A DNA stretch of 64,000 bases from Bacteroidota bacterium (GTDB taxonomy: Bacteria > Bacteroidota > Bacteroidia > Bacteroidales > FEN-979), in the NCBI GenBank assembly GCA_026391795.1, contig JAPLDI010000050.1, positions 1 through 64,000 of the forward strand, in the 5' to 3' direction. Under the pieces are notes generated by a model. The model searched no databases. It worked only from the letters and a program-made list of their open reading frames with translations, and was not told the DNA's origin. Of this stretch, positions 5,363 through 59,536 are shown piece by piece. Within the stretch, counting starts at the first letter, position 1, and each line of letters begins with the position of its first letter. A program made the position numbers and the translations under genes.

Positions 5363-5615
5363 ACAAATCTATAATAAAATTTTCAAACCAAACTATTTAT
5401 GTCCGATGACGAGATATTGGGAGAAATTACCTTTTTCCGGTGAAGGTTGAAACAGGTTAATATTAGACTAACTAACAGATAAGAAGAAAGATATGGTGAC
5501 TGAGCCGCCAGGCGAAGTCCCATATCAGGTTTTATAATAAAGCAAATTTTAATGCCGGGTAACGTTGAGTTCAACTATTGAAGACTCCACCGGTAAATTC
5601 AGAAAAGACGAATCC

Positions 5616-5746
5616 TTCTTCCAGTGTTCTTCCAATGTTCTTCCAATATTGATCCAATGGTCTCCAATTAAAAGCTGAAAATATCGGACCTGATTGGATG
5701 ACATTGGAAGAACATTGGATCAACATTGGATCAATAATGGAAGAAA
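5616..5746. repeat. Inverted array of 11-bp units (TTCTTCCAATG-type left, ATTGGAAGAAC-type right)
   Basis: Left units 5616-5670 (5 x 11 bp), right units 5693-5746 (one 10-bp and four 11-bp units) in reverse-complement orientation. Confidence 0.9.
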
Positions 5747-5756
5747 GAGATAATGA

Positions 5757-6546: not shown

Positions 6547-6773
6547 CTGTTTTTGTTTTTGAGTTTCCCTACTCCTATGGATTTTCGGTATATCCCCGTT
6601 TTTTAAATGGTTTCTGGTCTCCATTATTAGTTGGCAATTTAGTAAATATTTTTAAGTGGAGAGAAGTGTTTGAAAAAAATAGTGAGAAATTTAATTAAAA
6701 TCAAATATATACTTTTTATTTCATTTATTGGTTTTATTTAGAGAACAGTTCCCTATCAAACAAACTTTGGGTT

Positions 6774-31983: not shown

Positions 31984-32033
31984 AATAAAGAGATGACTGA
32001 GCATCTTATACACAGAACTCCCTAACCTTTCTA

Positions 32034-32158
32034 CTTTACAAACTTTACAAACTTTACAAACTTTACAAACTTTACAAACTTTATAAACTTTATAAACTTT
32101 ACAAACTTTACAAACTTTACAAACTTTACAAACTTTACAAACTTTATAAACTTTACAA
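32034..32158. repeat. 9-bp tandem repeat (CTTTACAAA / CTTTATAAA), ~14 copies
   Basis: 13 full units 32034-32150 plus a partial unit; ends 5 bp before ATG of aat. Confidence 0.95.
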
Positions 32159-32163
32159 CTCCA

Positions 32164-32838
32164 ATGCCTGTATACCAGCTTCCCGATGAAATCCTCTTCC
32201 CTGATCCTTCAGAATCGGAACCGGAAGGTTTGCTTGCCGTTGGAGGTGACCTGAAACCGGAGCGTTTACTGACTGCCTATGCATCCGGAATCTTCCCCTG
32301 GTATTCTGAAAATGAACCCATCCTCTGGTGGTCGCCCGATCCCCGGCTGGTACTTTTTCCCCAGAATTTCAAGTCATCTCACAGTTTAAATCAAAAGATA
32401 AAGAAGAACATCTTCACTGTCAGGTGGGATACGGATTTTGAACAGGTCATCCATGCCTGCGCGGAAACGGAACGGAGGAATGAAACGGGCACCTGGATCT
32501 CAAAGGAGATGAAAGATGCTTACATTGAACTGCACAGGCTGGGATTTGCACATTCTGTTGAAATTTACGTTGAAGGAAAACTTGCCGGCGGGCTCTATGG
32601 TGTCTCCCTTGGCAGGGCTTTCTTCGGGGAATCGATGTTTCATATGGTGACCGATGCTTCAAAGATCGCCCTGTATTTCCTGATACAAAAAATGAAGGAG
32701 TTTGAGTTTCTGTTCATTGATTCGCAGGTTGAAACAGAACACCTGGTCAGCCTTGGAGCCGAACTGATCCCAAGAAAAAAGTACCTGAAACTGCTGAACG
32801 AAGCAATTAAGTACCCGACGATCAAAGGGAAATGGTAA
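32164..32838 (+). CDS. aat: Leucyl/phenylalanyl-tRNA--protein transferase
   Basis: 'PDPSESEPEGLLAVGGDLKPERLLTAYASGIFPWYSENEPILWWSPDPRLVLFP', 'GGLYGVSLGRAFFGESMFH'. Confidence 0.96.
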   Translation: MPVYQLPDEILFPDPSESEPEGLLAVGGDLKPERLLTAYASGIFPWYSENEPILWWSPDPRLVLFPQNFKSSHSLNQKIKKNIFTVRWDTDFEQVIHACAETERRNETGTWISKEMKDAYIELHRLGFAHSVEIYVEGKLAGGLYGVSLGRAFFGESMFHMVTDASKIALYFLIQKMKEFEFLFIDSQVETEHLVSLGAELIPRKKYLKLLNEAIKYPTIKGKW

Positions 32839-36712: not shown

Positions 36713-37915
36713 TTATTCTTTAATTATTTTTCCTACATCAATCGTTTTATCATTTTGTAATCTTATTAAATAAACTCCTGATGGGATATTTCCAATATCT
36801 ATTCGCGTTCTCTTATTAATGACCTTCTGTACGATCAGTTCAAGGCCCCTGACATTCGAAATTGATATGTATGGATTCCCTGTTACCGATGAACACTCGA
36901 TTGTGATTTCATCGTGTGCCGGATTGGGATAAAATCTCATAAGTGGTGAAGCAGATAAACTTCCATGTATTCCGACTCCCCCGCCATTTGTGGTTTTCAG
37001 AATCAAGCCACTATCACCGACTACATAACCTGTATTTACGTCGGTAAAATAGATTGAATGTAAATATTTTGCAGTTCCTGAAAACTCACTTGTCCAATCC
37101 GCGCCGCCATTCATGGTAGTTAGAATTACACCATTATCTCCGACAGCATAACCTGTATTTAAGCCTGCAAAAAATACGGATCTTAACCCATTCACTATGC
37201 CGGTGACCTGATTAATCCAACCGGTTCCTCCGTTTGTAGTTTTTAGTATTATTCCACTATCACCCACAGCATAACCTGTACTCATATCAGTAAAATAAAC
37301 GGAATATAAATTATGGATTGTACCTGATGACTGGGCTACCCATGTTAACCCTCCATCTGTTGTTTTTATAATGGTTCCACTGTCACCAACGGCATACCCG
37401 GTATTTACTGTCGGGAAATATACTGACTCCAGCCAGTTTTTTGTGTTTCCATTAGAAATGGGCAGGAAATAGTTTCCATTTGTTGTTTTTTCAACTACCC
37501 CGCCACCGCTTAGACCACTGGCCGCGACAAGATATCCCGTGTCAATGGCAGGGAAATAAATAGAAGTTATCCGATAAAACCAGGGATTAAGCAATGTTAG
37601 ATCCCAGTTAATACCTCCGTTAATTGTTTTTAACAATATCCCATTATCACCGGCGGTCCACCCTGTTTTAGTATCCAGAAAATGAATGGAATGAAACCAT
37701 TCTGAAGTGCCCGAAGTTAATATCGCCCAGTTTGTGCCACCATTTGTGGTTTTCAGGATTATTCCTCCTTCACCTGATATATACCCGGTATCCGTAGCAG
37801 GAAAATAAACAGAGGATAATACATTGGCCGTCCCTGAATTCAGGATTGTCCAGTTTTGTGCATTTACTTCAGTCAATGCAATCAAAGAAATTAATAACAT
37901 GTAGAGCTTTTTCAT
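36713..37915 (-). CDS. Ycf48-like T9SS-sorted protein, paralog of the 3218-5362 gene
   Basis: 'SGTxxxLxSVYFxxxxTGYAVGDSGxILKTTNGGxxW' repeats; tail 'RFYPNPAHDEITIEC...GKIIKE'. Confidence 0.9.
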   Translation of the reverse strand: MKKLYMLLISLIALTEVNAQNWTILNSGTANVLSSVYFPATDTGYISGEGGIILKTTNGGTNWAILTSGTSEWFHSIHFLDTKTGWTAGDNGILLKTINGGINWDLTLLNPWFYRITSIYFPAIDTGYLVAASGLSGGGVVEKTTNGNYFLPISNGNTKNWLESVYFPTVNTGYAVGDSGTIIKTTDGGLTWVAQSSGTIHNLYSVYFTDMSTGYAVGDSGIILKTTNGGTGWINQVTGIVNGLRSVFFAGLNTGYAVGDNGVILTTMNGGADWTSEFSGTAKYLHSIYFTDVNTGYVVGDSGLILKTTNGGGVGIHGSLSASPLMRFYPNPAHDEITIECSSVTGNPYISISNVRGLELIVQKVINKRTRIDIGNIPSGVYLIRLQNDKTIDVGKIIKE

Positions 37916-38100: not shown

Positions 38101-38219
38101 CTACAGTCTTCCTACAGTCTTCCTACAGTCTTCCTATAAGGTCAAAATGTTTTTTGCATTTTGTTTCTGAAGCGAGACTGTAGGAAGCTTATAGGAAGAC
38201 TGTAGGAAGACTGTAGGAC
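38101..38219. repeat. Inverted array of 11-bp units (CTACAGTCTTC left, GACTGTAGGAA right)
   Basis: Left units 38101-38133 plus partial; right units 38176-38219; perfect 31-bp arms 38110-38140 / 38188-38218. Confidence 0.95.
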
Positions 38220-38257: not shown

Positions 38258-39256
38258 CTATCTCCCAAATGGCTGATCCTTCTCAAAATCAGGCCTGTAA
38301 TGATCAGCACTGCTCAACTCCTGGATCCATCCGTTTTCCATACCCAGCCGCTCCATCTCATTCACAACCGTTGCATATTCCTCAGGAGAGACCTTGTTTT
38401 GCAACACGGGATGGCAGCTTACCATTAGCGTCGGGTAATATTGCGACATCAGCGAAACATGAATCTTCGGGGAAAGTTCTTCAGCAATAAAATTGATGAC
38501 CTTCAGGCTGTTGCCGGCATGACCCGGCAGGACAAGGTGCCGGATAATAATTCCTGACTCAGCGGTCCCCTCTTTCCCGGTATGAAGGACGGCGCCTTTT
38601 TGCCGGAACATCTCCTTAAGGGCCATTGACGCCATTTCAGGATAATCAGGCGCATCGGAATATTCTCCGGCCAGCGTGGATTCCATGTATTTCAGATCCG
38701 GCAGGTAGACATCGATCATCCCTTCCAGCAGACGCAGGGTTGATGGCTTGTCGTAGCCGTTTGAGTTGTATACCCATACCGGCTTATACCCCAGGGACTC
38801 GATGCAGCGGATGATGATCATCACCTGCGGGATGAAATGCGACGGCGAAACGAACCCTACCCGGGTGATGCCAGCATCCAGAAAGCCACTCACCTGACGG
38901 ATCACTTCCTCCAATTCCATCGCATCGCTACTGACAGCCAGCCGGTTATCACTGATCTGGTAGTTCTGGCAGTAGATGCACTGCAGGTTGCAATGGGCAA
39001 AGAACAGGTTGCAAATCCCCTCCTCCCCGCTGATGGCAGGTTCCTCACCATGATGGATGCATATGGAGGAGATACAGAACGAAGCATTGCTCTTGCAATA
39101 CCCCAAATCCTCAGAGAAACGGTCTGCAGTGCATTCGCGGGGACAGAGATCGCAGTCGTGCAATTTTTCCAGCGGATCAAGAAACGGGGTTAAATCCATC
39201 AATGAATGCAGTTTTTCCGTACTTTTGAAGTTTATTAACGTCACAAAAGTACGCAA
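38258..39256 (-). CDS. Radical SAM protein, PflA-activase-like
   Basis: 'CNLQCIYCQNYQIS' CxxxCxxC motif; N-terminal 'CDLCPRECTADR...GYCKSN'; 'PDLKYMESTLAGEYSDAPDYPEMAS'. Confidence 0.92.
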   Translation of the reverse strand: MRTFVTLINFKSTEKLHSLMDLTPFLDPLEKLHDCDLCPRECTADRFSEDLGYCKSNASFCISSICIHHGEEPAISGEEGICNLFFAHCNLQCIYCQNYQISDNRLAVSSDAMELEEVIRQVSGFLDAGITRVGFVSPSHFIPQVMIIIRCIESLGYKPVWVYNSNGYDKPSTLRLLEGMIDVYLPDLKYMESTLAGEYSDAPDYPEMASMALKEMFRQKGAVLHTGKEGTAESGIIIRHLVLPGHAGNSLKVINFIAEELSPKIHVSLMSQYYPTLMVSCHPVLQNKVSPEEYATVVNEMERLGMENGWIQELSSADHYRPDFEKDQPFGR

Positions 39257-43412: not shown

Positions 43413-45536
43413 ATGGATACAAGAAAAAGTGCGGGATTTTGGTTGGTCCTTTTTGCTTTCCTTCTCTTTTTTACGGATTTGAAGGGACAGTTTCTTTCAA
43501 ACCTGGATGCAACAAAAGATGATGCCCTTTTTACCACCTATGCTGCCCCGCAGAACCGGTCGGAATATTTGAATGACCAGGGTTACCAGTTTCTGTGGAA
43601 TGATGAAGAGAATGGGGCAGAATTCGTTTCAAAAGAGGGATTGAACTTCGGAATGGCATTTTCCAGGGATGATGAATTCAGGTTCCGGTTAAAGGAATTA
43701 TACCGTGAGCCGGTTGTTACCCTCTCCTACAGCGATCTTGTCTCATATTATTATTACCCTTTCCAGGGTATCCGGGTCACCGTTTTGTTCGACGTATTCT
43801 CTTCGAAGGAAGCAATCGCAGATATCCGGGTAAGGAACGAAGGGAACTTCCCTGTTGAGTTACAGGTGTTTCCATATTTTTATTTTCCGTCGAGAGATAC
43901 CGTTAATGACATTCTTCACCAGGCTCCTTTCGATTTTTATTCCTTCCCGGTGCATAAAAGCCGCGATGGCTGGATGAAAGAGCATTCCATCCCGGTTTCG
44001 GAAGAGCTGACAGGATTCACAGCAACCGATATCCGTTTCGACAGTGTCCTGACATTTGTAAAATACAAACATGTTGCTACAATGCAGCGAGTTACAGATC
44101 CCTTCCTGCACCTTAAGGATCAGCTCCGGATGAATAAAAGATCTTCACTGGCTGTAAAAGGATTCCTCTTTTCGAGGGAATTCAGGATCTGCCAGGGCGA
44201 ACAGGTTCATTTCAGGATGGTTTTTGGGCTGGAGGATAAAGAGATCAGGATGCCCATACTATCGAAAAAAATTCAGCCCTTATTCGCAACGGATCTGAAA
44301 AAGCTGGTGCGTGAAGATGAAGAGGCTTATAAAAAGATCCCTTTGCTGAAGGGAGAAACCAATCAACACGCATTAAAAGAGAGGGACCTCACCTGTTTCT
44401 ACTGGAGTTGTTTTTCCCTCCTGAGGCAGTGCATGATGCCGCCGGAAGGCAAGTGCACCCGGAACTATTATGTTTTCTCCCGTGAACCGAAATGGGGATG
44501 GGGATATGGCGGACAGGTTTTTCATGAAAGCCTTTCCATGCTCGCTTATGCGCTTATGGATCCGGAAGGTGCCATGAATTCACAACGCGTCTATTTTGAG
44601 CGTCAGCATCCCGACGGGTACATCAACTACCGTACGGGTCCATACCTTGACGAAACCATTGAAATCAATGGAAAACTTACAAGTTCAGCTCCTTTATTCA
44701 ATTATGAGAACCTCGGGATTTTCAGGATCACCCATGATAAAAAGTTCCTGGGTGAGGCTTATCGTTCGGGTTCGAGGTTTTACCAGTTCTATGTTGCAAA
44801 CCGCGATTCAAACAACAATGGCCTTTGCGAATGGGGTGGTGAAGCATCCCTTGAATCGTTGAGGGATGCGAGGGTTGCGGTATGGGACCAGGTCGGCTGG
44901 CCTTCCAATTTCGAGGGGCCGGATCTCAATTCCATGCTGGTCAGGGAGGCAAGATCACTTGCAGTGATGGCATCCGGCCTCGGTTTCAGGGAAGATGCTG
45001 CGAAATGGACCAAAGAGGCAGAGTCCCGTTCAAACCTGATAAACCGTACGATGTGGGATCCGGCGGACGGGTTCTATTATAATGTGAACAGGGAGGATCA
45101 ATCCTTTACATTTAGAAGAAAAGATGACCTGAAGATCAGGGAGATCATCGGATTTTTACCCTTGTGGGCCGGTGTGAGCGATCGGAAGAAGACCAACCGG
45201 CTGCTCCACCACCTGACCGATCCGGATGAATTCTGGAGATCCTACGGCATTCCTTCGCTGTCGGCGAAGGAGAGTTATTATAATCCCATAGGATACTGGA
45301 ACGGACCGGTTTGGGTTCAGTGGGACTACCTGCTGTTTCGTGGACTGCTGGACCAGGGATACAAAAAAGAGGCAGAAGAACTGGCCATGAAGGTCCTTGA
45401 CAATATGATCTGGCATCTGAAGCAGGATCATGCTTTCTGGGAGTTTTACAGTCCGGATGACCGTGAGGCCGGATGGAACAAGACCTACATCTGGGCCGGG
45501 CTGGCAGCAAGGTTCCTGGTCGATCTGGGAGAATGA
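43413..45536 (+). CDS. Six-hairpin (MGH1/GH63-like) glycoside hydrolase
   Basis: 'EPKWGWGYGGQVFHESLSMLAYALMDPEGAMNSQRVYF', 'GFYYNVNREDQSF', 'YYNPIGYWNGPVWVQWDYLLFRGL'. Confidence 0.85.
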   Translation: MDTRKSAGFWLVLFAFLLFFTDLKGQFLSNLDATKDDALFTTYAAPQNRSEYLNDQGYQFLWNDEENGAEFVSKEGLNFGMAFSRDDEFRFRLKELYREPVVTLSYSDLVSYYYYPFQGIRVTVLFDVFSSKEAIADIRVRNEGNFPVELQVFPYFYFPSRDTVNDILHQAPFDFYSFPVHKSRDGWMKEHSIPVSEELTGFTATDIRFDSVLTFVKYKHVATMQRVTDPFLHLKDQLRMNKRSSLAVKGFLFSREFRICQGEQVHFRMVFGLEDKEIRMPILSKKIQPLFATDLKKLVREDEEAYKKIPLLKGETNQHALKERDLTCFYWSCFSLLRQCMMPPEGKCTRNYYVFSREPKWGWGYGGQVFHESLSMLAYALMDPEGAMNSQRVYFERQHPDGYINYRTGPYLDETIEINGKLTSSAPLFNYENLGIFRITHDKKFLGEAYRSGSRFYQFYVANRDSNNNGLCEWGGEASLESLRDARVAVWDQVGWPSNFEGPDLNSMLVREARSLAVMASGLGFREDAAKWTKEAESRSNLINRTMWDPADGFYYNVNREDQSFTFRRKDDLKIREIIGFLPLWAGVSDRKKTNRLLHHLTDPDEFWRSYGIPSLSAKESYYNPIGYWNGPVWVQWDYLLFRGLLDQGYKKEAEELAMKVLDNMIWHLKQDHAFWEFYSPDDREAGWNKTYIWAGLAARFLVDLGE

Positions 45537-45554
45537 GGTGAACAGGTTGATCAT

Positions 45555-45634
45555 TGTCTTCCCCCGGGCTTGTCTTCCCCCGGGCTTGTCTTCCCCCGGG
45601 CTTGTCTTCCCCCGGGCTTGTCTTCCCCCGGGCT
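45555..45634. repeat. 16-bp tandem repeat TGTCTTCCCCCGGGCT x5
   Basis: Units start at 45555, 45571, 45587, 45603 and 45619; the last unit forms hairpin CCCCCGGGC-TTTA-GCCCGGGGG with downstream sequence. Confidence 0.95.
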
Positions 45635-45716
45635 TTAGCCCGGGGGTACAAAAGAAAAATATTCAAAGGGCTTTAGCCCAGAATCTTATCAGAAAAAAGT
45701 CGTAATAGTTCTAAAG

Positions 45717-59278: not shown

Positions 59279-59313
59279 TTTCAGCGTAACCAATACGCTG
59301 AAATTCGGAACGA

Positions 59314-59536
59314 TAGAATAAAAGGAAATTACAACAGTATGACCCCGTCGGGGTCCAGATATTTATAGAATAAAAGGAAATTACAACATTATGACCCCGT
59401 AGGGGTCAGATATTTATAGAATAAAAGGAAATTACAACAGTATGACCCCGTAGGGGTCAGATATTTATAGAATAAAAGGAAATTACAACAGTATGACCCC
59501 GTAGGGGTCAGATATCTATAGAATAAAAGGAAATTA
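59314..59536. repeat. ~51-bp tandem repeat (4 copies plus partial), each with GACCCCGTAGGGGTC palindrome
   Basis: Unit TAGAATAAAAGGAAATTACAACAGTATGACCCCGTAGGGGTCAGATATTTA; starts at 59314, 59366, 59417, 59468 and 59519. Confidence 0.97.

Follow-up and report, generated by a model that had tools for sequence, protein, structure and literature searches.

A dispersed stem-loop element with 11-bp tandem-repeat arms in a Bacteroidota genome and its possible kinship with S23p-bearing elements

Eukaryotic foldback transposons have long terminal inverted repeats that are built of short tandem units and enclose a variable middle, and the STRR sequences of cyanobacteria are intergenic heptanucleotide repeats that occur as short tandem arrays, many per genome. 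ORFs of the S23p family, which is widespread but without known protein function, have been described from intervening sequences (IVSs), stem-loops that are cut out of 23S rRNA by RNase III (PMC4990558), and the IVS of Coxiella burnetii has been described as a selfish element (PMC4990558). Two further reports describe template switching between inverted repeats, by which arms are homogenised and perfect hairpins are made (PMC8794818, PMC8604942). Here, we describe a small stem-loop with tandem-repeat arms that is located in the window, a stretch of 64 000 nucleotides taken from a Bacteroidota assembly of 3.76 Mb (50 contigs, 95.6% complete). The hairpin and its neighbours comprise the following features.

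36713–37915, minus strand: downstream gene with Ycf48-like repeats and a T9SS-type C-terminus, as judged by sequence
38101–38140, unstranded: left arm of family A, three copies of CTACAGTCTTC and then CTATAAG, in 11-bp units
38140–38175, minus strand: conserved 36-nt loop core of family A, identical in the second copy
38175–38218, unstranded: right arm of family A, four 11-bp units
38188–38198, minus strand: 11-bp unit CTTCCTATAAG, present in the window copy only and without a counterpart in its sister
38258–39256, minus strand: upstream gene, predicted to be radical-SAM-like from a cysteine motif only

Positions 38101–38218 contain two inverted arrays of an 11-bp unit, which give the element a long stem of terminal inverted repeats. 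The arms (38110–38140 and 38188–38218) are 31 nt each, are 100% complementary and are separated by a gap of 47 nt, and TRF reports a period of 11 in each of them, in agreement with the first-pass annotation, which had described a perfect 31-bp inverted repeat with a 47-nt loop and an 11-bp period. Its placement of the hairpin between the neighbouring genes also holds: the stop codon at 38258 precedes the element by 40 bp, and the gene start at 37915 follows 186 bp beyond it. The RNA fold has a z-score of −8.7 on the plus strand and −10.5 on the minus strand, with none of the shuffled sequences equally stable. The pattern TCTTCC-N5-TCTTCC, with one mismatch allowed, occurs seven times in the window compared with 0.52 expected. 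No Rfam family exceeded its gathering threshold at the hairpin in a search of the whole window, the sole match being a DUF805 RNA (RF03081) at 6562–6629 with 77.7 bits.

Families A and B (see below) were searched for across the entire assembly, and arrays of any sequence were scanned for in 1.4 Mb of it. The 36-nt loop (38140–38175), of which the first-pass annotation had made no use, pinpoints a copy of the hairpin elsewhere in the genome. The whole-assembly search with TCTTCC-N5-TCTTCC detected a further inverted array at C1:33205–33286, which a DNA search aligned with the window copy at 92% identity over 106 bp (element span G000:C1:33197–33302). Family A has these two copies in the genome, between which the loop is identical, and is a dispersed intergenic stem-loop element of roughly 120 bp. 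A single exact 11-bp insertion (38188–38198) separates the window copy from its sister. The inserted unit is reverse-complementary to positions 38130–38140 in the opposite arm, and with it the longest perfect stem grows from 23 to 31 bp. The insertion may thus be read as a signature of polymerase template switching between the arms of the palindrome, as support and not proof because it represents one event in one pair of copies.

The window also contains a member of a second family, family B.

5613–5748, unstranded: family B copy, locus 1 of the first-pass annotation, with TCCAAT-N5 arrays in inverted orientation on either side of a 24-nt loop at 5669–5692

A pattern search and a covariance model placed family B at exactly seven sites (on contigs C8, C12, C18, C23, C31, C36 and C38). 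Every copy is an inverted pair, so that together with family A nine of nine loci are inverted. The invariant of family B is TCCAAT, with TCTTCC present in just 17 of its 67 units; the TCTTCC core that the first-pass annotation had assigned to both window hairpins was therefore overstated, and its identity between them is mostly a chance match due to one spacer variant. Measured from the innermost CCAAT to ATTGG, the loop of every copy has exactly 24 nt, and the loop sequences are identical at a mean of 12.4 of 24 positions, compared with at most 9.1 in shuffles, which clearly points to homologous loops. Similarity between the loops of the two families is also above that of simple shuffles, yet both are A-rich. 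Because loops are held in common within each family at otherwise unrelated sites, the element has been copied between loci in both families, a conclusion that we regard as practically certain. The annotation had argued against simple copying between loci; this view is not supported, given two copies of family A and seven of family B with conserved loops, and its proviso, that the genome might hold no further arrays, is answered by seven more loci of the two families outside the window.

The spacers of family B fall into few types. Units of one arm have the same spacer type in 38% of comparisons (permutation p < 0.0002) and units of opposite arms of one element in 29% (permutation p = 0.0014), compared with 12% for units of different family B elements; units are therefore homogenised within an element. 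The proposal of the first-pass annotation that units are homogenised within a locus is borne out by these values and by the insertion that matches the opposite arm. In family B, the variable spacer bases pair in register no better than when arms are permuted between elements; selection for a perfect stem is thus not evident in this family, and template switching is not demonstrated for each element. We consider in-place homogenisation of the arms with template switching to be likely.

Both families are intergenic, lying between protein genes and outside rRNA. Six of ten elements (families A and B and a related element on C15) lie 9–56 bp past the stop codon of a long ORF, and several of the downstream genes start 100–250 bp away and look exported. 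The C15 element itself (G000, L170:1513–1623) is a possible third family with a period of about 11 bp and 49-nt arms, 56 bp past a stop codon. No hairpin is found behind the orthologues of the radical-SAM-like gene in relatives, and there is no clean empty site because the gene order beside this gene differs in them. Integron attC sites were dropped as a candidate, as the sequence shows no attC core motif and relatives have kept the upstream gene. The family B pattern is absent from all 148 relatives, four of the same genus included, and the covariance model gave no convincing match in 60 relatives; its weak matches in G008, G033, G034, G044 and G046 were recognised on inspection as unrelated or chance hairpins. 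The search for family A covered this genome and also viral contigs, the latter with the loop as query; the search pattern of neither family is present in those contigs. Direct 11-bp arrays of the CCAAT type (L063–L068) occur in Acidobacteria, Chitinophaga, Bacteroidales, Proteiniphilum, Methanosarcinaceae and Pseudoalteromonas, and those of other phyla were rejected as homologues; such arrays have no inverted partner within 2.5 kb and are thus taken to be independent minisatellites.

Other inverted arrays in the 1.4 Mb scanned have periods of 7, 9, about 11 and about 19; inverted arrays of period 7 and 8 were seen in a genome of the same genus. Of the tandem arrays that have a partner in inverted orientation no more than 1.5 kb away, most have it at less than 120 bp, i.e. 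as a hairpin; a few ordinary genes are also flanked by inverted arrays, at larger gaps. Within the window, a 51-bp unit with a CCCCGTAGGGG palindrome is repeated 4.4 times at 59313–59536 with GCTGGAT-type heptamer arrays on both sides, and Y1 transposase genes at other sites of the genome lie among palindrome-bearing arrays of 36–50 bp. A 9-bp unit, ACTTTACAA, is repeated 14 times at 32033–32158 directly upstream of an ORF at 32164, and related 9-bp units form the inverted flanks of an S23p gene on C40. At 45554–45635 a 16-bp unit, TTGTCTTCCCCCGGGC, is repeated 5.1 times with 100% identity just past an ORF ending at 45536.

The genome has ten matches to PF05635 (S23p, 23S rRNA intervening-sequence protein). 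None lies at a hairpin of family A or B, the loops of which are too short for an S23p ORF. The PF05635 genes have inverted short tandem arrays around them, with a unit that is particular to each locus. Flanks were scored by comparing the 450 bp upstream with the reverse complement of the 450 bp downstream, measured from the ends of the domain match and not of the gene. As the yardstick we used the 95th percentile of mismatched pairs (15.5; the 99th percentile is 73.5), because their extreme tail probably consists of homologous elements in opposite orientation. The mean score of 33 S23p loci from this genome and its relatives, the latter mostly represented by the best-scoring locus per genome, is 25.4 for inverted flanks, compared with 11.5 for direct flanks and 11.7 for mismatched pairs. 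A score of at least 16 is reached by 24 of the 33 loci and by six of 237 control ORFs drawn from two genomes only (Fisher p about 1e-21); judged by sequence, these six include two S23p genes and one GxxExxY gene. For GxxExxY (PF13366) loci, again mostly the best-scoring one per genome, the figure is 18 of 26, compared with 4.6% of mismatched pairs; this association is weaker because direct flanks, too, have a high mean (23.0), to which a few loci contribute most. A phylum-wide S23p sample gave 12 of 30 compared with 2.6% of mismatched pairs; the inverted-array architecture around S23p genes extends across the phylum, if more weakly. In the relatives G001–G059 a genome has up to 15 GxxExxY matches, many of which are fragmentary or interrupted by stop codons; such broken copies are as expected of mobile genes. 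The unit GATGCTG occurs in this genome both around S23p genes and in ORF-less hairpins, which makes it plausible that the ORF-less hairpins and the S23p elements belong to one architectural class. No cargo-bearing element with 11-bp arms was found, the S23p arms having units of mostly 7, 8, 9 or 13 bp. A literature search, beyond whose reach most subscription papers lay, found no description of inverted tandem arrays around free-standing S23p genes. Kinship of the window hairpins with the S23p elements is possible, if somewhat doubtful.

Four other explanations were considered. The hairpins could be MITE- or REP-like non-autonomous elements that are moved by a transposase (for example Y1/RAYT) and are unrelated to the S23p elements, which we consider unlikely. 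The copies are palindromic, dispersed, intergenic and genome-specific, the MITE trait of terminal inverted repeats in multiple copies at unrelated sites is present, and the genome has five Y1 transposase matches. However, when the Y1 and PF05635 genes of this genome were inspected closely for an autonomous transposon, the array-flanked Y1 genes were seen to be accompanied by other, longer repeats (24–50 bp, several of them CCCTACGGG-type palindromes) and by no 11-bp arrays, and mobilisation by a RAYT was rejected on this ground. Visual inspection of the aligned flanks, in which the element borders are uncertain, gave no target-site duplication, and no tagged end was noticed; the REP traits of a 20–40 bp length, a GTAG or CGTC tag and the flanking of a RAYT gene are all absent.

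That the arrays are sites of a DNA-binding protein, with TCCAAT presented on a single helix face at 11-bp intervals, in opposite orientation on the two sides of a spacer of fixed length, and controlling the next gene, is improbable. The invariance of TCCAAT while the spacers vary would suit this explanation, as would a loop that keeps its 24 nt despite diverged sequence, spacer pairing under no selection and the exported-looking genes that start 100–250 bp off, but the core of family A is different, genomes of the same genus have no family B sites, many copies directly follow a stop codon (9–56 bp) and a search around the window copy gave no promoter-like site. Transcription terminators, or 3′-end hairpins that stabilise mRNA, grown by unit duplication would account for the very stable RNA folds and for the position of most copies just past stop codons, but the stem of the window copy is followed by no T-run and a scan of its sequence gave no terminator-like site, while loops in common reflect copying and not local growth; we regard this as quite improbable. 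Ordinary intergenic minisatellites with an incidental inverted layout are very improbable indeed: 7-bp and other short arrays abound in the genome, CCAAT-type arrays without an inverted partner occur in unrelated phyla and 11-bp arrays that lack an obvious inverted partner are present in G003, a genome of the same genus, but nine of nine loci of the two families are inverted with loops conserved within families, and inverted pairs cluster at gaps below 120 bp.

The explanation that we favour, with moderate confidence, is that the window hairpin is a copied stem-loop element whose arms are altered in place and which is an ORF-less member of the S23p/GxxExxY class. Elements of families A and B were first copied between unrelated loci. 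Their arms would then grow or shrink in place by whole 11-bp units and become uniform through slippage and through template switching of the polymerase from one arm to the other, and the window copy would record one such event. We infer, as a third step, that the hairpins are ORF-less members of a class of stem-loops with arms of inverted short tandem arrays, the larger members of which would carry an S23p/IVP (PF05635) or GxxExxY (PF13366) ORF in the loop. By analogy with the IVSs of 23S rRNA, the transcribed stem should be a substrate of RNase III. A class that spans the Bacteroidota, consisting of small mobile stem-loops with template-switched arms, S23p or GxxExxY genes in the larger members and the hairpins as MITE-like derivatives, is a more speculative possibility.

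If this is correct, turnover of the arms by template switching would yield loci that are unrelated in sequence with the architecture kept, and genes of the S23p family would gain the context of a free-standing element outside rRNA. Short tandem arrays fill the intergenic regions of many bacteria and are unexplained; here, comparable copies show arms that appear to have been rewritten from each other. The link to S23p suggests that the stem-loop element is the unit of selection, and its mobility becomes directly testable.

The window elements have inverted repeats of tandem units in common with foldback transposons, but are bacterial, are far smaller and have no known transposase. The IVSs of 23S rRNA, such as that of C. 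burnetii (PMC4990558), are like the window hairpins stem-loops with terminal inverted repeats, the IVS stem being 28 bp; the Coxiella IVS has an S23p-family ORF in its loop, and here S23p marks larger elements of like architecture, whereas the window elements lie between protein genes, are ORF-less and have tandem arrays as arms. REP elements, which are associated with RAYT/TIRYT transposases, are similarly short, palindromic, intergenic and dispersed in one genome, but they are 20–40 bp long with GTAG or CGTC tags (PMC3733652), while the window elements are about 120 bp long with 11-bp tandem arms. The TAACTGA heptanucleotide repeats of Beggiatoaceae (PMC4679880) are likewise short, tandem, intergenic and numerous in a genome; in those sets all repeats but a single indirect one are direct, whereas families A and B always form inverted pairs around a conserved loop.
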